Below, piece by piece: positions 2,006 to 15,060 of a stretch of DNA of 15,337 bases. The first letter of the stretch is position 1. Every line of letters begins with the position of its first letter. The notes beneath the pieces were generated by a model. That model did no database searches. It saw only the letters and a list, made by a program, of their open reading frames with translations, and was not told the DNA's origin. A program made the translations under genes and the position numbers. The stretch lies in the NCBI GenBank assembly GCA_017984655.1, contig JAGNZB010000024.1:1-15337 (forward strand). The letters run 5' to 3'. The stretch is from Candidatus Altimarinota bacterium (GTDB lineage Bacteria > Patescibacteriota > Gracilibacteria > RBG-16-42-10).

Positions 2006-4096
2006 TTACATAGAGACTACCGTATTCTTCCTTCTAGCTTTGACATCCACCTTCCTCAGATCAAGTCGTCCCAATACATAGGTCAATTCATACAAGTCTC
2101 CGCCCGCTACTTGAAACTGAATGCTCATCATATTGGGCCGCCCCTCGATAAACCCGACGGTTCCTTCATCAGGGGCAGCATAGACATGATCTGGATACAG
2201 CTTTGGCAATGGAGGCACCGTAGTCAAAGGAGCAAAGATAGAGAAAAACTGACGCTCAAGTTCGTCGGCAGTAATGGAAGGATTGGAGGTTACTGCAACT
2301 TCAATCACCTGACGCCACTTTGCCCAACGGCGCTCATTCTCATCGTCCAATCCAAATCGCACAAACAAATGGTTAGCATCAGCAGTCTCAGGGTCCAAGA
2401 CAGTATCCAAACAATCAGCCAAAGCTCCACGTACCGGAACCCAGTTTCCCGCCAAATGAGAAAGCTGGTCCTTTTTAGCAGTCACAATACTACCCAAAGC
2501 ATGTAATGGTCGTCCCACTCTTTCTAGATAGTCTGCCAATAACATATGTTGGTCCATTCGAAACAAATTCAGCGAATTCAAAGAGCTGAGCACACCATCG
2601 ACTGCCTGCAGCTTCAACTTTTCTGCTTCAAAACAAGGTAAAGCAATCAACTTTGGCAGCTTATCACGCAAAACCTCCAAGTGAGTTGCCATCTCGGTAA
2701 GGTGCGAAAATGCCGTCAATGCAGCAGCCCAGTGCAAAGCATCACCACAAGCAGCTCTACGATCTCGACGCCAAGCATCGACATCATCTTTTGGCTGCAA
2801 AAATAAACCAGAGAGAATTGCTCCCATGTTTTTTCGAAGCTCATCAGGAAGTATCTGCCGTGTACGATCCCCAAGCACAGCCAATAATCGTAGTGGTGTT
2901 ACTTTTGGCTCAGCTGAACTGACTGCAGTAGTCACCTCTGTCAGCAATCTACCCACTCTATTTGCAGCAGTCACCACGACATTGATATCTGCACACCACT
3001 TCTCTATATCCTGATAATAAGCGTCAAGCATTTCCGGTAGTTGCTTGGCTCTCGTCCTTTGAGCGGCTAACACAATTTCATTTTGCACAGCAATGCGTCT
3101 TGTTCTCCACAAGCTTTTGAATTGATCAAAAACAGGCAATGGTACTACCAATACACCATTATTCATCTGACCAGAACTCATCAATACCCCTTGTAAAGTA
3201 GTATACGTTTGATGCGCCACAGCCTCTACTTTTGGAAACCGTAATACAACCTGCAATCCATTCGAATACAGCACAACAGGCATGCCATTTCCTGCCATAT
3301 AAGCATTGATATCTTGAAAATCTTCCATTGGTCCAGTAGGGATGACGTCTCGGGATCGAGCTAGGTCCCCAGCAACAATCGCCTGCATCTCTGCCAGTGA
3401 CTGACCATCACGCAAAGACTGAGTCACTACCACCATTTCCTGGGTGAGACTGCGCACAGTTCTCTTACGTCGAGAGGCTTGAGGCAACATACTATTACGA
3501 TCATCCAATAGGGATCGAATATCTTGACGCAAATGAGCAACTTGCGCATGAGAGAAAAACAGCCAAGCTAAAAAGGCCTGCATTTTAGGCATCATGAATT
3601 GCTTCAAGGCTGGATAGCCCCCAGTCTCCGGTGTCATTGGACCGGAGTAGCCAAAAGTTTTGAATATTGTAAAATCAAATACTGGCTTACCAGCATTTGG
3701 TCCACTAGAAGCAACATTTTTTTCTAACAACTGCGAAGCGTAAAGATGATGGAACCCAGAGGCTTCAGTAGCCGCAAATGCAAACCATTCATCATACGTG
3801 ATATTGACCAATTCCTTACCAAACTGCTGATGACCAGCAGCACAACACTCCAAGACATAGTCAGCATTGCCCACTTTCGCACCATCAGGCTTTTTTGAGA
3901 ACCAAAAGTTATCAATCGCATTAGCAAAAACCTGAGTCATCTCAGATCCCGGGACAGCGACACGGTCCCGGCTTGCCTTTGCAGAAGTTTGAGACAATGT
4001 CTCCATCAGCTTCGCCACCTCATCAGGACGCAATGGCCTGGTACCATCTCGCAAAAAAAGCGACAAAGAGAAATCAAAAGCCCTCACGGATGCCAT
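2006..4096 (-). CDS. Unknown ~696-aa protein between nurA and secA
   Basis: I do not recognise this protein. It is long, probably soluble and mostly helical: there is no signal peptide, no clear membrane segment, and no convincing Walker A, nuclease or transferase motif. A GPNAGKP stretch in the N-terminal third lacks the hydrophobic strand expected before a P-loop. The C-terminal ~120 residues are richer in strand-like sequence and end in a basic KARRKNTVVSM tail. Start choice: ATG at 4096 has GTGAGGAA about 5 nt upstream, the best ribosome site seen in the window. Alternatives in the same frame are ATG at 4144 and TTG at 4159, the latter giving 717 aa. It follows nurA by ~47 nt (to the TTG) or ~109 nt and precedes secA by 58 nt. 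A candidate promoter lies in the nurA gap. The function is unknown, and a DNA-repair role would rest only on the nurA neighbour. Confidence 0.85.
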   Translation of the reverse strand: MASVRAFDFSLSLFLRDGTRPLRPDEVAKLMETLSQTSAKASRDRVAVPGSEMTQVFANAIDNFWFSKKPDGAKVGNADYVLECCAAGHQQFGKELVNITYDEWFAFAATEASGFHHLYASQLLEKNVASSGPNAGKPVFDFTIFKTFGYSGPMTPETGGYPALKQFMMPKMQAFLAWLFFSHAQVAHLRQDIRSLLDDRNSMLPQASRRKRTVRSLTQEMVVVTQSLRDGQSLAEMQAIVAGDLARSRDVIPTGPMEDFQDINAYMAGNGMPVVLYSNGLQVVLRFPKVEAVAHQTYTTLQGVLMSSGQMNNGVLVVPLPVFDQFKSLWRTRRIAVQNEIVLAAQRTRAKQLPEMLDAYYQDIEKWCADINVVVTAANRVGRLLTEVTTAVSSAEPKVTPLRLLAVLGDRTRQILPDELRKNMGAILSGLFLQPKDDVDAWRRDRRAACGDALHWAAALTAFSHLTEMATHLEVLRDKLPKLIALPCFEAEKLKLQAVDGVLSSLNSLNLFRMDQHMLLADYLERVGRPLHALGSIVTAKKDQLSHLAGNWVPVRGALADCLDTVLDPETADANHLFVRFGLDDENERRWAKWRQVIEVAVTSNPSITADELERQFFSIFAPLTTVPPLPKLYPDHVYAAPDEGTVGFIEGRPNMMSIQFQVAGGDLYELTYVLGRLDLRKVDVKARRKNTVVSM

Positions 4097-4165
4097 GTAT
4101 TCCTCACGTTCGATAATTGGCTCATGTCTAGGTGTATTCCCCATATGGTTGATAATCAAGACAAG

Positions 4166-5559: not shown

Positions 5560-5586
5560 ACACTCAAACCAGCATTGATCCACAGC

Positions 5587-6492
5587 ATGAGTCAGACTCC
5601 GCCAATCCCACCTACACTATTTGCTATCCCACTCAGCCCAGTCACGCAAGCACAAGTACTGCACACTATTGCTGAGCGTGTCAGTCAGAACCAGCAAACT
5701 AGAATTGTCACCGTCAACCCTGAGTTTATTTTGACCAGTCTTCACAATAGCGAATTCCGAAAGACTTTACAGACAGCAGACCTACAATTAGCAGATGGGA
5801 TTGGGCTGATCTGGGCTACCCACCTACTCCAGCTAACACCGCGATTTCCCAGATGGTGTCAACGCTTACCAAGACTATATAGCGCATGGCAATGCTTCTA
5901 CACGCTAGCTTCAATCCCCTTCAGCAAAGCAATATATAGCCAGCTTCCAGAACGAGTCACCGGTAGTGACTTATTTCTGCCACTATTGCGTCAGCTAGCA
6001 GCCAACAACCAATCAGTCTTCCTTCTCGGCGGCGCCCCAGGAGTAGCCGAGGCAACAGCAAAAAAAGTAACTGAGAGCATCCCCAATCTGACTATCGCAG
6101 GCACCTATGTCGGATCCCCCACACCCGAAGAATCAAAACAGATCATCAGCACCATCAAAAACAGCGGCGCCCAAGCACTATTTGTGGCCTTCCAGTTCCC
6201 CAAACAAGACATCTGGATTCATGACCATCTCCCCCAGCTACCACAAGTCAAAGTCGCCATTGGTGTCGGAGGCACCTTTGACTTCATCGCCGGCACCGCC
6301 CACCTCCACCATCAGCACGCCAAAGCAAAACGAGCACCGAAGCTCATTCAAAAGCTTCAATTAGAATGGTTATGGCGACTCTTCACCCAACCCCATCGTT
6401 GGAAAAGAATTTGGAACGCCACAGGGGTATTTATTGGAAAGGTATGGCAAGAAAAGACTGCGACCAACAAATCAGATTGCCATTCAGGCTGA
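5587..6492 (+). CDS. WecG/TagA/CpsF-family (GT26) glycosyltransferase
   Basis: Members of this family transfer a sugar, often N-acetylmannosamine(uronate), from a UDP-sugar onto an undecaprenyl-PP-linked GlcNAc at the inner membrane face. This starts teichoic acid linkers, enterobacterial common antigen or capsule units. Family signatures: TVNPEF near residue 42, ADGIGLIWA (catalytic Asp) near 70, ERVTGSDL, FLLGG, a PKQ motif, GVGGTFDFIAG, and the C-terminal KRAPKLIQ...LEWLWRL...QPHRWKR membrane-association region. The ~301-aa length is slightly over the usual ~240-260. The extra residues lie after the catalytic motif in a segment rich in aromatics. The PKQ motif reads AFQFPKQD rather than the common GAPKQE. 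I chose ATG 5587; an in-frame TTG at 5575 is the alternative. Neither has a clear Shine-Dalgarno. It is the first gene of a four-gene rightward operon. Confidence 0.93.
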   Translation: MSQTPPIPPTLFAIPLSPVTQAQVLHTIAERVSQNQQTRIVTVNPEFILTSLHNSEFRKTLQTADLQLADGIGLIWATHLLQLTPRFPRWCQRLPRLYSAWQCFYTLASIPFSKAIYSQLPERVTGSDLFLPLLRQLAANNQSVFLLGGAPGVAEATAKKVTESIPNLTIAGTYVGSPTPEESKQIISTIKNSGAQALFVAFQFPKQDIWIHDHLPQLPQVKVAIGVGGTFDFIAGTAHLHHQHAKAKRAPKLIQKLQLEWLWRLFTQPHRWKRIWNATGVFIGKVWQEKTATNKSDCHSG

Positions 6493-6528: not shown

Positions 6529-6705
6529 ATGTTTAATTTCGTGATTGTTGCCTTGTTGGTCGGTTTTCCTCTTACGGCGCATGCATATATTGATCCAGGA
6601 GCAGGAAGCAGCATCATTCAAGTAGCTATTGCTAGTATTGTAGCAGGCATGTTTGGCTTGAAAGTGCTTTGGCAAAAATTCCTGATCAGAGCCAAGAGAA
6701 AATAA
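6529..6705 (+). CDS. Small membrane protein with YIDPGAGS motif (58 aa)
   Basis: This 58-residue ORF fills the gap between the glycosyltransferase and the next gene. It starts with a hydrophobic signal-like segment (residues 2-16) ending in TAHA, a plausible signal-peptidase site after residue 19. YIDPGAGSS follows at 20-28, then a second hydrophobic stretch (29-49) and a basic tail QKFLIRAKRK. From memory, small proteins with a YIDPGTGS motif straight after a signal peptide recur in bacteria beside methyltransferase and sulfatase-like genes of surface-polysaccharide loci, but no function is established that I know of. The layout here matches exactly: the kinase-like/methyltransferase gene begins 11 nt after the stop. 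The topology suggests the DPGAGS motif faces the periplasm or outer side. An AGAAGGG lies ~17 nt before the ATG, farther than ideal. Confidence 0.82.
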   Translation: MFNFVIVALLVGFPLTAHAYIDPGAGSSIIQVAIASIVAGMFGLKVLWQKFLIRAKRK

Positions 6706-6716
6706 CTTGCACCCAC

Positions 6717-8090
6717 ATGTCTTTAGCAAAAGCCCAATCTCCGGCTTCTTTTCGTGATACTGCCGGTTTTATTTTCACCAGTGAAGGCCAACTATTTCGT
6801 CAAGTAAATCACGTCGGACAGGAAGGATATGATCAGCTCATCAGCTCCGGTCTTTATGAGGCCCTCACCAAACAAGGACAGTTAGTCCCCCACCAAGAAG
6901 TAGCCAACACTGAAGACACCAGAGCTTACAAGACTATCCAACCAGAAAAGATCCCATTCATCTCCTACCCCTATGAATGGTGTTTTAGCCAACTCAAAGA
7001 CGCTGCTTTACTGACACTAGACATTCAAAAAACAGCAATCGAACACAGCATGACTCTCAAAGATGCTAGTGCTTACAATATCCAATTCTGCAAAGGAAAA
7101 CCACTACTGATCGACACCCTTTCTTTCGAGAAGTATGTAGAGGGGCAGCTCTGGCAAGCATATCGTCAATTCTGCCAACACTTTCTCGCACCATTGGCAC
7201 TGATGCACTACACCGACATTCACACCGGTCGCTTAAGCCAGCTTTGGCTAGATGGTATTCCGCTCGAGATCGCCTCTCATTTGCTTCCCTGGACCACCAA
7301 ATGGCGCTTCTCCACCCTGATGCATATTCACATGCATGCCAAGAGTCAGAAGCATTATGAACGCAAGAGCACCAAAGCCAGCGCTCGACACATCAGCAAA
7401 TTCCAAATCCTCAGTTTGTTGGACAACCTGACCACCACGATCAAAAAACTGCATCCCCACAGACAAAAAACTGAATGGAGTGACTACTACAACCGCACCA
7501 ATTACAGCGACACCAGTCTCTTGGACAAAAAATCTATTGTCGAGAAATATCTCCACCAGACCACTCCAACCACCGTTTGGGATCTCGGTGGCAATGACGG
7601 ATTCTTCAGTAGAACAGCCAGTGACCAAGGCATCGAGACAATCTCCTTTGACATCGATCCCTTTGCTGTAGAACAAAACTACCAACAGACCAAGGCAAAA
7701 CAAGAAGCTAGTATCCTCCCTCTAGTACTAGACCTGACCAATCCCAGTCCAGCGATCGGTTGGGGCAACGAAGAGCGCGACTCCCTGACAAACCGAGGCC
7801 CAGCCCATACACTATTAGCATTGGCGATCATCCATCATTTAGCGATCTCCAACAATCTCCCTTTCGAAAAAATAGCGCACTACTTTAGTCAGCTCGGCAG
7901 CAACCTGATTATCGAATTCGTCCCCAAGACCGACTCCAAGGTGCAGTACCTCTTGAGCAGCCGCGAAGATATCTTTGATAATTATACAGAACAAGACTTT
8001 GAGAAAAGTTTCAGTCAGTATTTCTCAATTGTAGAGAAACAGAAAGTGCTTAATGCAGAGAGAACAGTGTATTTGATGAAAAAACTATGA
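6717..8090 (+). CDS. Kinase-like/SAM-methyltransferase two-domain protein
   Basis: This 457-aa protein has two parts. The C-terminal part (about 255-457) is a class I SAM-dependent methyltransferase: VWDLGGNDGFFS at 287-298 is motif I, FDID at 311-314 is the acidic end of strand 2, and DLTNPSPAIGW (339-349) plus RGPAHTLLALAIIHHL (360-375) fit the family often labelled nodulation-type (NoeA-like) methyltransferase. The N-terminal part (1-250) contains LKDASAYNIQF (114-124) followed by LLIDTLSF (130-137). D116, N121 and D133 have the spacing of a kinase catalytic loop (D-x4-N) and metal-binding Asp, so a kinase-like fold is possible (inference). The substrate is unknown, probably an envelope glycan or glycolipid. 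I chose ATG 6717; an upstream in-frame TTG at 6669 would overlap the small membrane-protein gene. Its stop overlaps the next start (ATGA). Confidence 0.88.
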   Translation: MSLAKAQSPASFRDTAGFIFTSEGQLFRQVNHVGQEGYDQLISSGLYEALTKQGQLVPHQEVANTEDTRAYKTIQPEKIPFISYPYEWCFSQLKDAALLTLDIQKTAIEHSMTLKDASAYNIQFCKGKPLLIDTLSFEKYVEGQLWQAYRQFCQHFLAPLALMHYTDIHTGRLSQLWLDGIPLEIASHLLPWTTKWRFSTLMHIHMHAKSQKHYERKSTKASARHISKFQILSLLDNLTTTIKKLHPHRQKTEWSDYYNRTNYSDTSLLDKKSIVEKYLHQTTPTTVWDLGGNDGFFSRTASDQGIETISFDIDPFAVEQNYQQTKAKQEASILPLVLDLTNPSPAIGWGNEERDSLTNRGPAHTLLALAIIHHLAISNNLPFEKIAHYFSQLGSNLIIEFVPKTDSKVQYLLSSREDIFDNYTEQDFEKSFSQYFSIVEKQKVLNAERTVYLMKKL

Positions 8091-10195
8091 AAAAAAGCCT
8101 ACTATCGGCACTACTCACCAATGTCTTATTTTGGACAACAACAACATTCTTCATTCCACTAAATCTGTTTCTTGCTAATCGTTTAGAAATGACAGCAACT
8201 CTCACAACGATGATAGTTGAGATGATGATTATAACTTTAGTAGGAATAGCAGCTGGAACTCTTATTACATTTTTCCTCCCCCAAAAAGCATTTTCACCAA
8301 TACTAGCTCTACTCAGTGTATTAGGCGTGCTTGTGTGGTTCAAAAGCAACATACTAGTCATAAACTATGGAGTGCTTGATGGTCAAAGCATTAATTGGAA
8401 CGATTATAAGCTCCATGGAATAGCTGATATCATATTGTGGATAACAGTCATAATACTTGCAATTAAATTCCACAAAATAGTTGTCAAACATATAAAACTA
8501 ACAGCTGCATCACTAATACTGATCCAGGCCATCAGCTTTGGCATCAGTATATATAATTCCCCCACCACCATTCCAGTTAAAGGTCTAGACTTCGATTACA
8601 AGTCACAATTTGCTCTATCTACCCAGAGCAATGTTGTTTTAATTATTCTGGACACCTTTCAAACAAATTACTTTGATTACATTCTCAAAGAATACCCAGA
8701 ATACAAGAACGACTTACCAGGATTTACATATTTCCCAAATGCTACCGGTGGATTTACCACCACAGCACCATCAGTCCCACTTATTTTAACTGGACAGTAT
8801 TATGACAACTCGCAAGAGATTCTCAAATTCGCCGAAAGCGCATTCAACAGTAACTCACTCCCAAAGTTTCTCAAAGAAAACAACTATGAAACAAACATCT
8901 TTCCCCTTGCTGAGGGTTCAATAAAAAATGAAATTCTAACGATATCACCAACAATTGCTGACAATATCAAGCTAGAAACCGCACCAGCAATATTCTCAAC
9001 AGACAATAAAACACTGGAACTATTATATCTCACATGGTTCAGAGCGGCACCACAATTCTTAAAACCTGACACCGACTTTTTAGTACAAATATTGGCACCA
9101 CAAGAACACCCCACAGACACACTTGGCTTCGTTAAACAATTCAAACACACTATTAAAGCAGATAATATTGCCCCACAATTCAAGTTCTATCACCTATGGG
9201 GCCTGCATTCTCCATTAACAACAAACGAGGAACTCTCCTATGAAGAAATGAGTTATAATCCCCTAAATTATACTAGGGCAGCAAAAGGACATCTGGAAAT
9301 GATAAAAGAGTTTATTACAGCATTAAAAAACGAACATATATATGATCAAACCATGATAGTTATTGTTGGTGATCATGGCGCCGGTTTTCCAATCGGCACC
9401 GGCTCAGAAAATCAAGATATCGCTGAAACTATTAGAGCGAGAGCATTACCATTATTTCTAGTAAAACCGTTTTATAGTGACGCCCCCCTTCTTACAAAAT
9501 CAACCCCAGTTAGTTTAGAAGATGTATATAAAACAATTGCGAGCCAAATCGCTCCAGAAAAAACTAAAGACATACCAGGCTTAGATGTGTTGGATAATAA
9601 CTTTCCTATAGACAGGGAAAGAAAATATTTCTATTATCATGGGTCACTCGGCGTTTGGGTAAAACGCCATAACTCTCTGCCCGAAATGAGACGGTACCTT
9701 ATCAATGGCCATAGTTGGGACCCGAATGCATGGAAAGACACCAGAGAGATTTATGCTCCAGAAGGCCACAAAAAAACAGTCAACACAGACTATGTTTTGG
9801 CAGAAATAATTAATTTTTCTGAAGTTTCGTCACAAAAATATCTAGATGGTGGTTGGAGTCATACAGAACCAGAAGGGATATGGTCTCTTGGTAGCGAAGC
9901 CAGTATTGAATTGAATAAACTACCACCAAACCAAAACTTAATGTTAACCATTAACTTTTCAGCTTTCACAAAACAAAATATTGAAATCATCCTTAACAAC
10001 AATCCAATAAAACAAGTGAAGGTAGGCAGCAGAATGAGCCACAGTGTTAAATTACCATCACAGTTTATCAAAGGTAAAAATGATACAATCAAGTTCAGAA
10101 TATCATCGCCGAAATCCCCCATTGAATTAGGACTCAGCAAGGATGACCGCCAACTAGGTATATTACTAAAGACACTAACAGTCTCTGGAATATAG
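8087..10195 (+). CDS. Membrane-anchored alkaline-phosphatase-superfamily (sulfatase-like) transferase
   Basis: This 702-aa protein begins with four or five hydrophobic segments (about 5-28, 36-64, 70-92, 112-127, 138-155). An extracytoplasmic catalytic domain follows, of the sulfatase/phosphoglycerol-/phosphoethanolamine-transferase type. Visible catalytic elements: VVLIILDTF (183-191, metal-binding D189), GGFTTTAPSVPLILTG (221-236, nucleophile probably one of T224-T226, with no Cys for formylglycine), WGLHSP (371-376) and VGDHGAG (427-433, D429/H430). Lack of a CxPxR motif argues for transfer or hydrolysis of a phospho-group rather than a classical sulfatase. Residues ~585-702 form a strand-rich extra domain (GGWSHTEPEGIWSLG, then KDDRQLGILLKTL), possibly a carbohydrate-binding beta-sandwich. 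The start overlaps the preceding stop by 4 nt. The gene is more AT-rich than its upstream neighbours. The donor and acceptor are unknown. Confidence 0.88.
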   Translation: MKKSLLSALLTNVLFWTTTTFFIPLNLFLANRLEMTATLTTMIVEMMIITLVGIAAGTLITFFLPQKAFSPILALLSVLGVLVWFKSNILVINYGVLDGQSINWNDYKLHGIADIILWITVIILAIKFHKIVVKHIKLTAASLILIQAISFGISIYNSPTTIPVKGLDFDYKSQFALSTQSNVVLIILDTFQTNYFDYILKEYPEYKNDLPGFTYFPNATGGFTTTAPSVPLILTGQYYDNSQEILKFAESAFNSNSLPKFLKENNYETNIFPLAEGSIKNEILTISPTIADNIKLETAPAIFSTDNKTLELLYLTWFRAAPQFLKPDTDFLVQILAPQEHPTDTLGFVKQFKHTIKADNIAPQFKFYHLWGLHSPLTTNEELSYEEMSYNPLNYTRAAKGHLEMIKEFITALKNEHIYDQTMIVIVGDHGAGFPIGTGSENQDIAETIRARALPLFLVKPFYSDAPLLTKSTPVSLEDVYKTIASQIAPEKTKDIPGLDVLDNNFPIDRERKYFYYHGSLGVWVKRHNSLPEMRRYLINGHSWDPNAWKDTREIYAPEGHKKTVNTDYVLAEIINFSEVSSQKYLDGGWSHTEPEGIWSLGSEASIELNKLPPNQNLMLTINFSAFTKQNIEIILNNNPIKQVKVGSRMSHSVKLPSQFIKGKNDTIKFRISSPKSPIELGLSKDDRQLGILLKTLTVSGI

Positions 10196-10619: not shown

Positions 10620-10997
10620 TCAAAATAAAAACCAATCATGCTTTTTGTAAGTCTCTATAAAATCTACAGCTCTTTTGACGTCGAGTGCTTTGACCCAGGT
10701 TCCACAAACACAGCTCTTCCACCAGGAACAAGGACTCTAAACAGCTCCCTAAAAGTGCGCTCAAAGTCGTACATGTGGTGCGAACTATCAAAACAGACAA
10801 TATTACTAAAGAAATTGTCTTCTACTGAATCCATAGCATGACCATCTGATACAAATGTTCTCTTGTTCGAAGCATTCTTTTTTAACACATGAAAACAATA
10901 AAGCAAAATCAAAAAACATTCTTGCAGACCTTCTACCTGCAGTAAAAGGTTCATTAACTGTCGGGTTATTATTAAAAAAATAATGATTGATAAAGAG
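10620..10997 (-). pseudogene. Decayed SAM-dependent methyltransferase
   Basis: Two pieces of one methyltransferase lie in different frames. The first (frame open from 10997) reads NPTVNEPFTAGRRSARMFFD and resembles the N-terminal lead-in of a class I methyltransferase family. The second reads FVSDGHAMD, then VCFDSSHHMYDF, RVLVPGGRAVFVEPGS and KHSTSKE, the classic second half of a Methyltransf_11 domain. The glycine-rich SAM-binding motif I expected between them is absent, so an internal deletion has joined them out of frame near 10885-10900. After SKE the frame stops at a TAG, but shifting the frame recovers VDFIETYKKHDWF, as if one G were lost from GAG-GCT (E-A). A stop follows at 10622-10620. 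No start codon follows the last in-frame stop upstream. The remnant abuts the stop of the GT4 gene and was probably the next gene of that operon. Confidence 0.72.
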
Positions 10998-12120
10998 CTA
11001 ACGTTTTCTGAGCACAATCTTCCCATGAAAACTTATTTGCTTGCAACAACGCCTTTTCACGTAGAGATGCTGCAAGCTTAGGATCAGTGAGAAGTCTTTT
11101 AATAGCTGCAGTAATTGTTGTGATATCCGTTGAGTCGACCAGTAACACGGCATCCCCCGCTACTTCAAAAAGTGACGAATTACCGGCAGCAACTGCAGGA
11201 CATCCACAAGCCATAGCCTGGAGTAGTGGCAAGCCAAATCCCTCATAATGACTAGGAAACACAAAGCACGTCGCTCCACTATAAAGATACTTCAAATCTT
11301 CTTCTTCCACATAACCAATAAACTTCACCCGACTCTCAAGATCTCTTTCCTTCAATAACTGAAATATTTTATCATCCAACCATCCCTTTCCTCCACCAAC
11401 TATCAGCTGATATCGCTGCTTCAAATCACGAGGCAATGCATCATAAGCACTGATGAGGCCATCAATATTTTTACGAGGCTCTACTGTTCCTAGTGCAAAT
11501 ATATACGGTGTAGTAAGGCCATATTTTCGAAGCACGTCCCCAACAGCCACCTCATCAGATACTGGAAAGTAAAATTCTCGATCATAGCCCAATGGTGTCA
11601 CCACTATCTTTTCTTCAGGACAGTGAAAGTGCTTGATCAAATCAGTCTTGGTATGCTCCGAAATAGCAATAATCTTGTCAGCATGCCGAACGGCATCCAC
11701 TGTCCCCTTCATACAATGGTCAATATTCGCTTTCTGATGATATTGCGGATGCGTATAGAAGCTTACATCATGAATAGTGGAGACTAGCTTCCCCTTGAAG
11801 TCTAATGGTGTACAGAAAGTGGTAGAATGAAGGATATCCAAATCACCCAACAGCTTTGTTTTCGAAATACAAGAATCATTCCACAAATAATCAATCCAGT
11901 TCTTGGGAAGGTTTTTGTACTTATAACTAAACTGTTCACTCTTCTCTAAAGAGATGGTAGCATTCTTAAATTCAGGATGATAAATATAATAAAAAAATGG
12001 GAACAAAATATACTCGTATGGCGAGTCTAACTTTGCCAAATACTTCACCAGATTATAAGAATAAGTCCCAACACCTGCCCTGCTCCCAGGTACAAGACTA
12101 ATATCTATTCCGATAGTCAT
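10972..12120 (-). CDS. GT4-family glycosyltransferase
   Basis: This 382-aa GT-B enzyme probably moves a sugar from a nucleotide sugar (GDP-mannose or GDP-6-deoxyhexose would fit the gmd gene upstream) onto a growing glycan in the cytoplasm. N-terminal domain: MTIGIDISL...GVGTYSYNL (acceptor-side loop) and STIHDVSFYTHP at 114-125. C-terminal domain: FALGTVEPRKNIDGLISAY (208-226), VKFIGYV (265-271), and FPSHYEGFGLPLLQAMACG (288-306). The family's EX7E motif is E293 with Q at 301, a departure from the usual second Glu. The ATG overlaps the previous stop (ATGA, 12117-12120). The gene ends in TAA followed directly by two more TAA triplets. Downstream lies a decayed methyltransferase. Confidence 0.94.
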   Translation of the reverse strand: MTIGIDISLVPGSRAGVGTYSYNLVKYLAKLDSPYEYILFPFFYYIYHPEFKNATISLEKSEQFSYKYKNLPKNWIDYLWNDSCISKTKLLGDLDILHSTTFCTPLDFKGKLVSTIHDVSFYTHPQYHQKANIDHCMKGTVDAVRHADKIIAISEHTKTDLIKHFHCPEEKIVVTPLGYDREFYFPVSDEVAVGDVLRKYGLTTPYIFALGTVEPRKNIDGLISAYDALPRDLKQRYQLIVGGGKGWLDDKIFQLLKERDLESRVKFIGYVEEEDLKYLYSGATCFVFPSHYEGFGLPLLQAMACGCPAVAAGNSSLFEVAGDAVLLVDSTDITTITAAIKRLLTDPKLAASLREKALLQANKFSWEDCAQKTLALYQSLFF

Positions 12121-14177
12121 CGCTTCTTATTAGGAAATAGTGCGCCTGTGAGCCATCCCAAGAAAAGACGCATACTACTAAACGGTATACGATGATTATA
12201 ACGCAAGAAAGCAAGTGCTGAGTACCAAATAAGCACCAGCGAAAACCACACATTTTTCACAAAACCTTTGCGGTCATTTTTTACCACCAAAGGATAGGTA
12301 TGAGCATATGCATAAATCCAGTTTGCATGAACACTGCCATAGTGCTCTTTCACAATCTCCAAAATCTCCTTATGAACCTTATGACGCTGACCTAAGGTTT
12401 TAGTCTCCTCATACAAACGTGTGCTCGCAATGTGATCAGCGATGAAACCTAAAGGATATTGCTTGCTCACTCGAATCCAATATTCATAATCCATCGCAAA
12501 ATTCAGACCATCATCTAAGTATCCTACTGTATTTAAAACTTCCCTTCGCCAAAATGTAGTCGGCTGACAGATAGGACAAGTAGTATGGAGAACCTGGAAG
12601 TCACAGGGGCGTGAAGGATAGTTTTCTATAAACTCTCCACTCTTTGTCACATGATGGCCTTGCCCATGAACAAAAGCGGTATCAGGATTTTTTTTAAAGA
12701 AGGCAACAACCCTCTCCACTGCCTGTAAGTTATAAATATCATCTGAATTTAACCAAGCAACAATATCACCACGGGCCCGACGAAGACCTTTATTAATTGC
12801 GTCTGTTTGCCCACGGTCCCTCTCAGAAATCCACTGGATTCGTTGCGGATACAGGCTCGCATATTTCTGAATAATCTGAACTGAATTATCTTTAGAGCCA
12901 CCATCTACAATGATATACTCAATATTTTTATATGTTTGTTCTAGAACACTTTTAATAGTGTCTTCAATAAACTCACCCTGATTGTAAGAAGGGGTGACTA
13001 TACTTACTAAAGGCTGCTCTGCTGAAGAAACTAAACTCTCAGCACAAGTACCATGCCAATGATTTGTTGCCATCTTTTCTAAATTGCTAATTATTAGTTG
13101 GGCTGACCTCGCATAAGAGAACTTATGCGCCAACTTTTTACCCTTAGCCACTAAACCCTGTGCTAATGCTTTATCATCTAACAACTGGCTAATCTTAGAT
13201 GCAATATCTAGAGGATTTTTCGGATCAATATAGAGCGCCGCATCACCTGCTACTTCCGGGATACTAGTTACTTGTGAGGCCACTATTGGACACCCTGAGC
13301 GCATCGCTTCGACCAGAGGTATGCCAAAACCTTCAAATAATGAGGGGAAAACCAACATTTTCGCATTGGCATATATATATGGCATATCACTGCGATCAAT
13401 ATGTCCTAAGTAATGAACCTTTTGTATCAGGTTTGCCTTCTCAATGAAGGTAGTAATATCATTATGCGCATTACTTGCAGCCCCAGTAAAAACCACACTT
13501 AGATGAGGGTAAACCTTTTTCAGTATATTAAGAGCCTTCAGAAGGCCTATGTGATTCTTATGGGGCCAAGTATTAGCTGGATAAAATATAAACTCCTTTG
13601 GCAAACCATACTTTTTGCTTATTAAAGAGCGTCTACTAAGCTTGTAGTTAAGCATGAACCATGGAGAGGAATCATGAAACGCCACCTTCACTTTACTTTC
13701 AGGCAAATGCAAATACTCAATAACGTCCCGTTTCGTATATTCTGAATTTACGATCACAACATCTGCTTTCTTAACAGATAAAGCGATTTGCTTTTTACGC
13801 CACTCAAGTTCTTGTGGGGTAAAAAACTCCGGATAGTGTTCATGTTGTAAGTCAGCCAGAACCAGCATCGATGGGATACTGATATTTAATGGATCTAATA
13901 CCATTAATGGGCACCACCAGACGTCAATTGCATGTAAAGGAATCGCATCCTCAAGAAATGCAGTAATGGCAGGCAAGTTATCTAAGGCATAAGGCACCAC
14001 TACAGTTTCATATTGTTCAATATTATCAATTGATTTTAATACGTTTTCATTAGCAAATATTACATATCTATGAGCAGGATTAACTAAAGGAAAAAAATAC
14101 ACACACGCTCGAATAACGTGTTCAACTCCACCATTATAGCCGGGATTAATATGACTAAGATTAAGGCCAATACGCAT
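12117..14177 (-). CDS. GT4-GT2 bifunctional glycosyltransferase fusion
   Basis: This 686-aa protein carries two glycosyltransferases in one chain. Residues 1-370 are a GT4 (GT-B) domain: GGVEHVIRA near the start, VNSEYTKRDV at 143-152, FYPANTWPHKNH at 198-209, and FEGFGIPLVEAM at 281-292 with a canonical EX7E (E282, E290). After a ~20-residue linker, residues 390-640 are a GT2 (GT-A) domain: VSIVTPSYNQG at 391-401, IIVDGGSKDNS at 422-432, ERDRGQTDAINKG at 452-464, WLNSDD (DXD-like) at 475-480, and MDYEYW at 562-567. A hydrophobic stretch near 643-658, plus a second near 671-681, may attach the C-terminus to the membrane. One polypeptide could add two successive sugars to a repeat unit. It starts 1 nt after the methyltransferase stop and overlaps the next gene by 4 nt. 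Confidence 0.94.
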   Translation of the reverse strand: MRIGLNLSHINPGYNGGVEHVIRACVYFFPLVNPAHRYVIFANENVLKSIDNIEQYETVVVPYALDNLPAITAFLEDAIPLHAIDVWWCPLMVLDPLNISIPSMLVLADLQHEHYPEFFTPQELEWRKKQIALSVKKADVVIVNSEYTKRDVIEYLHLPESKVKVAFHDSSPWFMLNYKLSRRSLISKKYGLPKEFIFYPANTWPHKNHIGLLKALNILKKVYPHLSVVFTGAASNAHNDITTFIEKANLIQKVHYLGHIDRSDMPYIYANAKMLVFPSLFEGFGIPLVEAMRSGCPIVASQVTSIPEVAGDAALYIDPKNPLDIASKISQLLDDKALAQGLVAKGKKLAHKFSYARSAQLIISNLEKMATNHWHGTCAESLVSSAEQPLVSIVTPSYNQGEFIEDTIKSVLEQTYKNIEYIIVDGGSKDNSVQIIQKYASLYPQRIQWISERDRGQTDAINKGLRRARGDIVAWLNSDDIYNLQAVERVVAFFKKNPDTAFVHGQGHHVTKSGEFIENYPSRPCDFQVLHTTCPICQPTTFWRREVLNTVGYLDDGLNFAMDYEYWIRVSKQYPLGFIADHIASTRLYEETKTLGQRHKVHKEILEIVKEHYGSVHANWIYAYAHTYPLVVKNDRKGFVKNVWFSLVLIWYSALAFLRYNHRIPFSSMRLFLGWLTGALFPNKKR

Positions 14178-14178
14178 A

Positions 14179-15060
14179 TTATTTCTTAAGCACTAAAGCA
14201 TAATCGCCATACAGATGTGCCTGTGTCTCGTCAGTCTCAACACTGTTTATATTTGGCACTACAGGCGTCCTAAAGAGCAGCTTATGCTTCTGTAATCCCA
14301 TTTGTTGGGCAAAGAAGCTGACCACATTTGGAAACAAGGGCTTAACATGAGTGAGGTCCATGTAAAAGTATTGTTGACCTTGCGGACAAATAGGATTGAT
14401 GGTTTCAAGCACAACAAATGCGCCAGGAGCACTTTTCCTATAAAGCAAATACAATAACTTTTGTAACTTTTCCACATCAATATGTTCGATTACTTGAGCA
14501 GAAAAGATACCATCAAAGCTGTTATCGGGAACTTCAATTAAAAAACTGAATAAATCAACATTCCTCACCGATAATTGTTTACTTTGACAATAAGTAACCA
14601 TATCGAGATCTATATCAATACCATCAGCTTTAATATTATTATCTTTCAACAGAGATAAGAACTCGCCTCTTCCACAACCAATATCAAGTACATTTTTACA
14701 ACCTAGGAAATAATCAAGATATGGCGTTTGTCTTTCCCGAATAAGATCCTCATCGCCCCGAAAAGTATTTTCGAAATCTAAATAATTAACCTCAGGAAAT
14801 TGTAGCAGTACATTCTTAACATCCAACTTTGATTGTGAAAAACTGACAAACTGCTCCAATTGGCGCAATTTGTGCTGAAGAAGAAAAATTTCAGACTCAT
14901 TGTGATCTAGACGTTCCACTGAAGCATTAACAAGATCACTAACAATAATGTGGAACTTCTCAATATTTCTTAGTCGTCTCTTATGAGTTGAAAAAGGGAA
15001 TTTCAGACGAGCATAACATCTCGCCAAAAGGCTGTGAATAGTGCCAAGTAGATTTCTCAT
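14179..15060 (-). CDS. WbdD-like SAM-dependent methyltransferase with N-terminal coiled coil
   Basis: In the 293-aa protein, residues ~35-85 look like an amphipathic or coiled-coil helix (NESEIFLLQHKLRQLEQF). A class I methyltransferase domain follows: YLDFENTFRG at 93-102, VLDIGCGRGEF at 124-134 (motif I), GIDID at 147-151, and SAQVIEH at 187-193. It continues with ETINP at 219-223 and MDLTHVKPLFP at 234-244. This arrangement resembles the methyltransferase part of WbdD, which caps O-antigen chains and ends their growth, but there is no kinase domain here. A role in methylating the non-reducing end of the polymer is an inference. The ATG overlaps the gmd stop by 4 nt, and the next gene starts 1 nt after its TAA, so it is tightly coupled within the operon. 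It is AT-rich like its neighbours. Confidence 0.88.
   Translation of the reverse strand: MRNLLGTIHSLLARCYARLKFPFSTHKRRLRNIEKFHIIVSDLVNASVERLDHNESEIFLLQHKLRQLEQFVSFSQSKLDVKNVLLQFPEVNYLDFENTFRGDEDLIRERQTPYLDYFLGCKNVLDIGCGRGEFLSLLKDNNIKADGIDIDLDMVTYCQSKQLSVRNVDLFSFLIEVPDNSFDGIFSAQVIEHIDVEKLQKLLYLLYRKSAPGAFVVLETINPICPQGQQYFYMDLTHVKPLFPNVVSFFAQQMGLQKHKLLFRTPVVPNINSVETDETQAHLYGDYALVLKK

Follow-up and report, generated by a model that had tools for sequence, protein, structure and literature searches.

A conserved small membrane protein family encoded with NoeA- and NoeB-type genes in a Candidatus Altimarinota bacterium and in rhizobial operons

What does an open reading frame (ORF) of 58 codons contribute when it stands directly in front of two much larger genes with a putative role in envelope chemistry? 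The question is raised by a three-gene cassette in a stretch of 15,337 nucleotides (nt) from a Candidatus Altimarinota bacterium (contig JAGNZB010000024.1), which we refer to as the window. The three ORFs lie head to tail and fill positions 6529-10195 exactly; a preliminary description of this DNA had noted the 58-codon ORF, an 11-nt gap between it and the ATG of an ORF of 457 amino acids (aa), and an ATGA overlap of the latter with the third gene, all of which the ORF coordinates confirm. What that description missed is that the second and third genes, by homology, are relatives of NoeA and NoeB, the host-range nodulation proteins of rhizobia, the third belonging to the alkaline phosphatase (AlkP) superfamily. 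Judged from sequence comparison, the cassette is a NoeA/NoeB pair with a small gene in the same place as in the rhizobial operon, and the small ORF is a member of a genuine conserved protein family. The reading that we prefer, tentatively and at somewhat less than even confidence, is that the NoeA/NoeB module comes with its own membrane microprotein and would form an envelope phospho-modifying machine, of which the microprotein would be a subunit with an outward-facing motif.

The protein encoded by the second gene shares 51, 49 and 46% identity with three plasmid homologues and 33% identity over 97-99% with NoeA of Sinorhizobium meliloti (tblastn E values of 1e-50 to 1e-60 among the matches listed). 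The tblastn search with this protein against plasmids returned 65 records with a NoeA-type match, 57 of them from Sinorhizobium, and the gene is named noeA in 5 of 20 among the matches listed. In S. meliloti ml46 (pSymA) the order is nodL, a 216-nt gene annotated as hypothetical protein, noeA and noeB, and this 216-nt gene is a YLDPGTGS ORF; translation of the rhizobial small ORF gives a signal-peptide-like start followed by YLDPGTGSMLVQ. Rhizobium T136 has a similar hypothetical gene between nodL and the methyltransferase gene, and in S. meliloti 1021 the small ORF is present in the DNA at a stretch for which the PLSDB table holds no gene. The small gene is matched in 61 plasmid records, each from Sinorhizobium, Rhizobium or Ensifer, and the records with a NoeA match in those three genera also number 61 (counts, not record lists, being compared). 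Thus, the nodL-noeA-noeB operon contains an additional conserved gene, a small ORF of 71 codons. On the enzyme side, a single AlkP profile grown from the window protein matches NoeB of locus L014 as well as the AlkP neighbours of most NoeA loci. NoeA and NoeB were reportedly listed as host-range nodulation genes by Ardourel in 1995.

The arrangement was then counted from NoeA loci. An alignment of seven NoeA proteins, searched against one genome per species (84,980 species), gave at least 576 confirmed relatives, the best 80 of which were kept; these come from Chloroflexota, Bacteroidota, Zixibacteria, Krumholzibacteriota, Planctomycetota, Bacillota, one Altiarchaeales archaeon and others, and with six plasmid loci and the window they make 87 NoeA-type loci. 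The small-protein profile was trained on motif-bearing ORFs of these same 87 loci, which also served to extend the AlkP profile from the window protein. A member of the small family is found at 84 of the 87 loci, window included; the loci without it are L022 and L025, with 2 and 73 nt of upstream sequence before the contig end, and L054. The remark in the preliminary description that small YIDPGTGS-type proteins recur beside such genes in unrelated bacteria is borne out across many phyla. The small gene lies directly upstream of NoeA in 76 of the 84 cases, with a spacing of -26 to 144 nt (last sense codon to start of the NoeA match), while the order is small-AlkP-NoeA at two loci (L030, L033) and AlkP-NoeA-small at six (L017, L050, L060, L066, L067, L080); with gene orders this varied, the trio evidently survives rearrangement. 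The AlkP gene adjoins NoeA on the same strand at 60 of the 87 loci and is nearby at 8 more. Where at least 2 kb is available on both sides (51 loci), it is adjacent at 37, near at 5 and not found at 9, with L016, whose AlkP frame overlaps NoeA, counted as near. All three NoeA loci on viral contigs, which may be bacterial, carry both the small gene and AlkP.

Circularity was avoided by searching a profile of 50 small proteins (A2) in genomes drawn regardless of NoeA, namely 286 from the window's own phylum and, from the phyla to which L042, L034 and L047 belong, 198, 249 and 199 (centres counted); this test and the 251-genome test described below are more independent than the 87-locus counts. 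At E<=1e-6, own and centre genomes excluded, 23 matches were obtained. Sixteen adjoin a NoeA-type gene (L101-L107, L129-L132, L135, L138-L141), 15 of them new and one (L139) identical to seed L028, and three more (L133, L134, L136) have the order small-AlkP-NoeA, so that in 19 of the 23 at most one gene separates the match from NoeA (18 of 22 if the seed is left out). Two matches have an AlkP gene, on the same strand in L108 and on the opposite strand in L137, with no NoeA on contigs of 9.8 and 12.8 kb; the last two have neither partner, L109 within 17 kb and L115 on a 7.3-kb contig, at its end. None of the five weaker matches in the window's phylum (L110-L114, with E above 1e-6 and up to 1e-3) has a NoeA- or NoeB-type neighbour in the DNA examined. 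The family is sparse, being found in 15 of the 286 genomes of that phylum at E<=1e-3, with the window's own and weak matches included. We also considered pairs of small gene and AlkP gene as proof that the microprotein belongs to the AlkP enzyme, and rejected them as such: L133, L134 and L136 seemed to be such pairs in 1.5-kb flanks, and longer stretches (7 to 19 kb) put NoeA after AlkP.

Co-occurrence regardless of linkage was assessed in the Chloroflexota, the phylum to which L076 belongs, with 251 genomes. NoeA is present in 32 of them and the AlkP type in 29 (both at E<=1e-30), and AlkP is found in 29 of the 32 NoeA-bearing genomes and in none of the 219 without NoeA. The AlkP profile, being built from NoeA neighbours, defines a subfamily, and the search itself is blind to neighbourhood. 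Both by linkage, from either side, and by presence and absence in this one phylum, the three families co-occur far above chance, as the preliminary description had supposed. At the nine loci without a local AlkP gene, the genomes of L072, L073, L076, L082 and L084 (Chloroflexota) have one elsewhere, with E values of 1e-119 to 1e-138; for comparison, three genomes with an adjacent AlkP gene score 1e-158 to 1e-170.

The small proteins themselves share an N-terminal consensus YxDPG[TS]GS, then one hydrophobic helix and a basic C-terminal side. The Tyr of the motif and a Gln 11 residues after it are present in all 84; the other motif positions are nearly as strict (Asp 83, Ser 83, Gly(+6) 82, Pro 79, Gly(+4) 76), and further on Lys or Arg occupies position +25 in 73 of 84 and Trp position +28 in 69 of 84. 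With start codons picked by script, the motif is preceded by 16 or more residues in 64 of the 84, and 54 of these 64 show signal-peptidase-like residues at -3/-1; the remaining 20 start nearer to the Tyr, many being from Chloroflexota and some, such as L048 and L053, being cut by a contig end. The window protein has all features of the family (signal peptide or short N-terminus, motif, helix, Gln, basic C-terminal side), its Q31 aligning with the invariant Gln. According to the positive-inside rule the basic side of a membrane segment lies inside. Together with the signal peptide or short N-terminus this predicts a motif at the outer face, with an inward-facing basic side, for both the long and the short N-terminal forms, a topology compatible with the membrane subunit proposed in the preliminary description. 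Conservation of the ORF, also at stake there, is clear: the protein is kept across phyla, and of the 86 NoeA-type loci besides the window 83 have a relative. When S. meliloti 1021 is compared with Rhizobium T136, the first 63 codons of the small gene give nonsynonymous and synonymous rates (dN, dS) of 0.066 and 0.248, a dN/dS of about 0.27. No NCBIfam model was found for any of 50 members scanned, Pfam gave a single stray match (0.009), and the window ORF itself has no meaningful match in either database.

Several variants of the small gene were met along the way. At L149, L150 and L151 the order is small-AlkP-NoeA, the motif reads YIDPISGS or YIDPINGS, and the AlkP is divergent (profile E 1e-10 to 1e-18). 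One genome (G123) has two YIEPG-variant small genes on contigs without NoeA (L153 and L155), one of them preceding an AlkP gene, and the Altiarchaeales genome has an extra copy (L128) next to a 31-codon frame that resembles the start of NoeA, which looks like decay. Small proteins with YVGPGAG (L110, 32-1884) and YIDPNAG (L137) adjoin sulfotransferase-like genes, the first by PF13469 and the second by eye, and perhaps point to a wider class of such membrane peptides. In L111 (1528-3168) a YIDPGSG motif and hydrophobic helix share a frame with a phosphodiesterase-type AlkP domain (PF01663, 1.4e-34). This fusion was rejected as strong proof of a microprotein-AlkP link, since the full protein was matched in 1 of 78 genomes, in its AlkP part (residues 72-144) with the motif not covered; it matches the small-protein profile weakly (4.8e-5), its AlkP family differs from the NoeB type, and we take it as a hint only. 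Finally, an unverified 'phage' contig from human faeces (L147, MT836947.1, 1123-8138) has a variant small protein with YVDPATLT, its gene lying between a fusion of YidC with a CDP-glycerol glycerophosphotransferase and a 2-aminoethylphosphonate operon (transaminase, phosphoenolpyruvate mutase with cytidylyltransferase, phosphonopyruvate decarboxylase), a further phospho-decoration setting.

For the NoeA-type protein, the description as kinase-like/methyltransferase stands in its second half: residues D289/G291/N293/G295/D312/D314, an S-adenosylmethionine (SAM) motif, are invariant, and PF13489 matches 32 of 41 relatives at 0.01, with no Pfam match for the window protein itself. The kinase-like half is not detectable here by sequence, neither Pfam nor PDB giving a match to a kinase fold, though R28, D116, N121 and D133 are invariant in 41 of 41; we take these as the kinase residues of PMC9758233 (Arg for Lys72, Asp166, Asn171, Asp184), a pairing made in this analysis. 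In a tree of 101 NoeA proteins the window groups with three Bacteroidota rows at a support of only 81, which suggests transfer, short of proof. Genomes of 59 close relatives contain no NoeA match at 1e-3 and 11 chance-like small-protein matches (E 0.04-0.7), and in the window's own 1.05-Mb genome the sole match to the small gene is itself. As for the NoeB-type protein, called sulfatase-like/AlkP-superfamily transferase before, PF00884 upholds the superfamily and the residue at the nucleophile position speaks against a sulfatase, for which Cys or Ser would be expected: residue 226 is Thr in 44 of 46 relatives, Ser in 2 and Cys in none. Asp189, at a metal-site position, is kept in 45 of 46 and Asp429 in 46 of 46. 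Thr is the nucleophile in LtaS and EptA, and a Thr nucleophile would be expected to fit a phosphatase or phosphotransferase. Simple hydropathy finds two hydrophobic segments in the small protein (1-21, 25-48), none in the NoeA type and four in the NoeB type (residues 35 to 156).

Table 1. Coordinates of the cassette and of its upstream neighbour in the window.
Feature	Position	Strand	Basis
Small membrane protein, 58 aa, YxDPGxGS family	6529..6705	+	ORF; profile match E 5.1e-16 (window among profile seeds)
Likely signal peptide of small protein, ending AHA	6529-6585	+	sequence
Motif YIDPGAGS of small protein; then one helix, basic C-terminus	6586-6609	+	sequence
NoeA-type kinase-like/methyltransferase, 457 aa	6717..8090	+	ORF; identity to NoeA; invariant residues
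Kinase-like part (R28, D116, N121, D133)	about 6717-7436	+	NoeA-type protein
Methyltransferase part	about 7545-8024	+	NoeA-type protein; methyltransferase Pfam in relatives
NoeB-type AlkP-superfamily membrane enzyme, 702 aa	8087..10195	+	PF00884 9.1e-18; AlkP profile
Thr226, nucleophile position of NoeB-type enzyme	8762-8764	+	alignment of relatives
ATGA start/stop overlap of NoeA-type and NoeB-type genes	8087..8090	+	ORF ends
WecG/TagA gene upstream of cassette	5575-6492		PF03808, 1.3e-49

The WecG/TagA gene ends 36 nt before the small ORF, and the preliminary description had the cassette act on a lipid-linked glycan begun by this enzyme. That part is not supported: phmmer with the window WecG finds no homologue at the other 86 loci (at most about 6 kb on each side, often less), and WecG/TagA was rejected as part of the unit. 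Nor is there a constant fourth partner among the 88 of 97 chosen flanking frames that were scanned (nine from plasmid loci left out), which fall into 75 families. Elsewhere in the window, a 717-aa protein without a Pfam family (2009-4159, minus strand) is flanked by a NurA gene (PF09376) and an ORF that by eye is SecA-like, and a convergent run of glycosyltransferase genes with a methyltransferase gene (10975-15060, minus strand) includes one 686-aa protein with GT1/GT4-type and GT2 domains.

How might the NoeA/NoeB module and its microprotein work as an envelope phospho-modifying machine? The signal peptide of the microprotein would be cut just before the Tyr, or a very short N-terminus would take its place, so that the motif ends at the outer face. 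Cytoplasmic NoeA would phosphorylate and/or methylate a membrane-linked substrate; on the outside this product would be donor or acceptor of a phospho-group for the AlkP enzyme, and a glycan or lipid of the envelope would be decorated. The microprotein, as membrane subunit, would keep the machine assembled and assist the AlkP enzyme at the outer face, because its motif would share that enzyme's compartment.

A number of points count against this reading. L054 has NoeA without a small gene in the DNA examined despite 6 kb of upstream sequence, and the nine of 51 well-flanked loci likewise lack AlkP in the DNA examined; in the genomes of four of these nine (L031, L083, L064, L096) the best AlkP elsewhere is weaker, at 1e-91 to 3e-35. 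Three NoeA-bearing Chloroflexota genomes have no AlkP at the threshold. In 10 of the 29 genomes with both, AlkP lies more than 5 kb from NoeA or on another contig, which need not mean distant, and no more than five AlkP candidates were scored per genome. The Fisher value for co-occurrence of NoeA and AlkP (6e-35, or 3e-32 without the previously met genomes G988, G990 and G1210) is a guide only, the 251 genomes being related and their kinship uncorrected. Pairs of small gene and AlkP gene are few, just L108 and L137 remaining; with that argument mostly fallen, the enzyme that the microprotein touches may be either NoeA or NoeB. The flanking genes, moreover, name no substrate.

The least improbable of the alternatives is that the target of the trio is a lipid of the membrane and not a glycan; NoeA would make or remodel the head group of a phospholipid, for transfer or removal by the AlkP enzyme. 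There is no constant sugar-pathway neighbour: GT2, the commonest family, accounts for 7 of the 88 flanking proteins and GT1 for 2, topoisomerase (5) and YidC (4) being about equally frequent. The window stretch, however, is rich in glycosyltransferases and the rhizobial operon begins with nodL, the Nod-factor acetylase gene, and we regard a lipid substrate as rather unlikely. A bolder extension of the preferred reading, which we consider unlikely, would make the trio a further kind of envelope-modifying machine, based on a microprotein. Its YxDPG[TS]GS peptide at the outer face would act as covalent shuttle or as indispensable co-catalyst for a phosphotransferase of AlkP type, which the kinase-methyltransferase feeds from inside; rhizobia would have recruited the module for host choice, and the nodL-noeA-noeB operon would gain the 71-codon gene as its missing fourth member.

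Distinctly unlikely, in our view, is a shuttle modelled on DltX, with the outward Tyr (or a Thr or Ser) as covalent carrier of a phospho- or methylphospho-group from the membrane side to the AlkP active site. The Tyr is indeed invariant, the predicted outward motif is short, and the one-helix microprotein is encoded with an external transferase-like enzyme. The Dlt pathway provides a parallel: according to PMC12148441, the invariant Tyr of the microprotein DltX carries D-alanine to DltD, and related systems have the motif fused to the enzyme, which L111 loosely resembles. Against such a shuttle, the load of DltX is an acyl group, carried at the C-terminus; Asp, Gly, Ser and Gln of the small proteins are nearly as strict as Tyr, which argues for a structural motif rather than a single nucleophile; and L111 is a weak match with another AlkP family. 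We give no more credence to the microprotein as substrate, with NoeA modifying the motif before export and the AlkP enzyme then trimming or tethering a small modified surface peptide. The link between small gene and NoeA is the tightest of all (84 of 85 testable loci, and 19 of 23 matches in the reverse test), and the constraint would make sense if a single chain with both kinase and methyltransferase acted on one conserved octapeptide. Modified peptide products usually vary in their core, though, whereas this motif is almost fixed and runs directly into the membrane helix, and on the contigs of L108 and L137, which have no NoeA, the small gene occurs with AlkP. That the small ORF is a mere leader or translation-coupling peptide for noeA is highly improbable: it mostly lies a few nt upstream of NoeA and at times overlaps it, but its protein motif is conserved across phyla, the gene is downstream of NoeA at six loci and separated from it by AlkP at five, and the rhizobial dN/dS is low, at about 0.27.

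The trio is a widespread module of bacteria of many phyla and an archaeon; its chemistry is therefore likely to be general and then put to use in symbiosis, and a small membrane protein family without a Pfam or NCBIfam model would be given a context. Part of this was known. According to PMC9758233 (published in 2022), the NoeA family combines a kinase, whose fold is reported, with a methyltransferase (94% of about two thousand), has homologues in 1201 species outside Legionella and in 12 archaeal ones, and has NoeB-like AlkP-fold neighbours; the NoeA/NoeB pairing and its breadth are to that extent established. Homologues of Lani_1193 and Lani_1195 are given there for 65% and 38% of 816 neighbourhoods, and Lani_1193, undescribed in the main text, may be the small protein discussed here. 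In the open-licence literature we found no relevant paper on the small-protein motif, its topology, the test from the small side or co-occurrence without linkage. Modification of Nod factors by NoeA/NoeB is still treated as hypothesis only in PMC9048898; PMC4053727 mentions a truncated noeA in a nodulation-deficient strain, and PMC10945364 names NoeA and NoeB as host-specific nodulation proteins.

Comparison with known systems sets the cassette among several partial parallels. Like LtaS-type and other AlkP-superfamily membrane transferases, the window NoeB type has PF00884 after N-terminal hydrophobic segments and a Thr at the nucleophile position; unlike LtaS, it scores far under the lipoteichoic acid synthase cut-off (18.3 bits with the NCBIfam equivalog, cut-off 970). 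WbdD, the O-antigen terminator of E. coli O9a, is described as a kinase and methyltransferase on one chain, as is the NoeA type, and as phosphorylating the glycan end and then methylating the phosphate. Its methyltransferase comes first, its kinase next and a coiled coil at the C-terminus, whereas in the window the methyltransferase is C-terminal, the matching WbdD stretch being N-terminal (53-103), and the WbdD profile match is not significant (E 0.45-0.65). DltX, as described in PMC12148441, resembles the small protein in being a microprotein of one helix whose short outward motif contains an invariant Tyr, and in having an extracytoplasmic transferase partner; it differs in its C-terminal FXYXXF motif, absent from the window C-terminus FLIRAKRK, in its acyl chemistry and in its partners DltB and DltD. 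The Legionella Lani_1194/Lani_1195 family, according to PMC9758233, has a NoeA-family kinase-methyltransferase with an AlkP-fold neighbour, as in the window. The window organism, with its 1.05-Mb genome, is unlikely to be a legume symbiont, and its cassette differs from the S. meliloti nodL-noeA-noeB operon in that no nodL is seen among the window ORFs (by eye and Pfam families) and a WecG/TagA gene stands upstream; with that operon it shares homologous proteins in the same order, small ORF, NoeA and NoeB.

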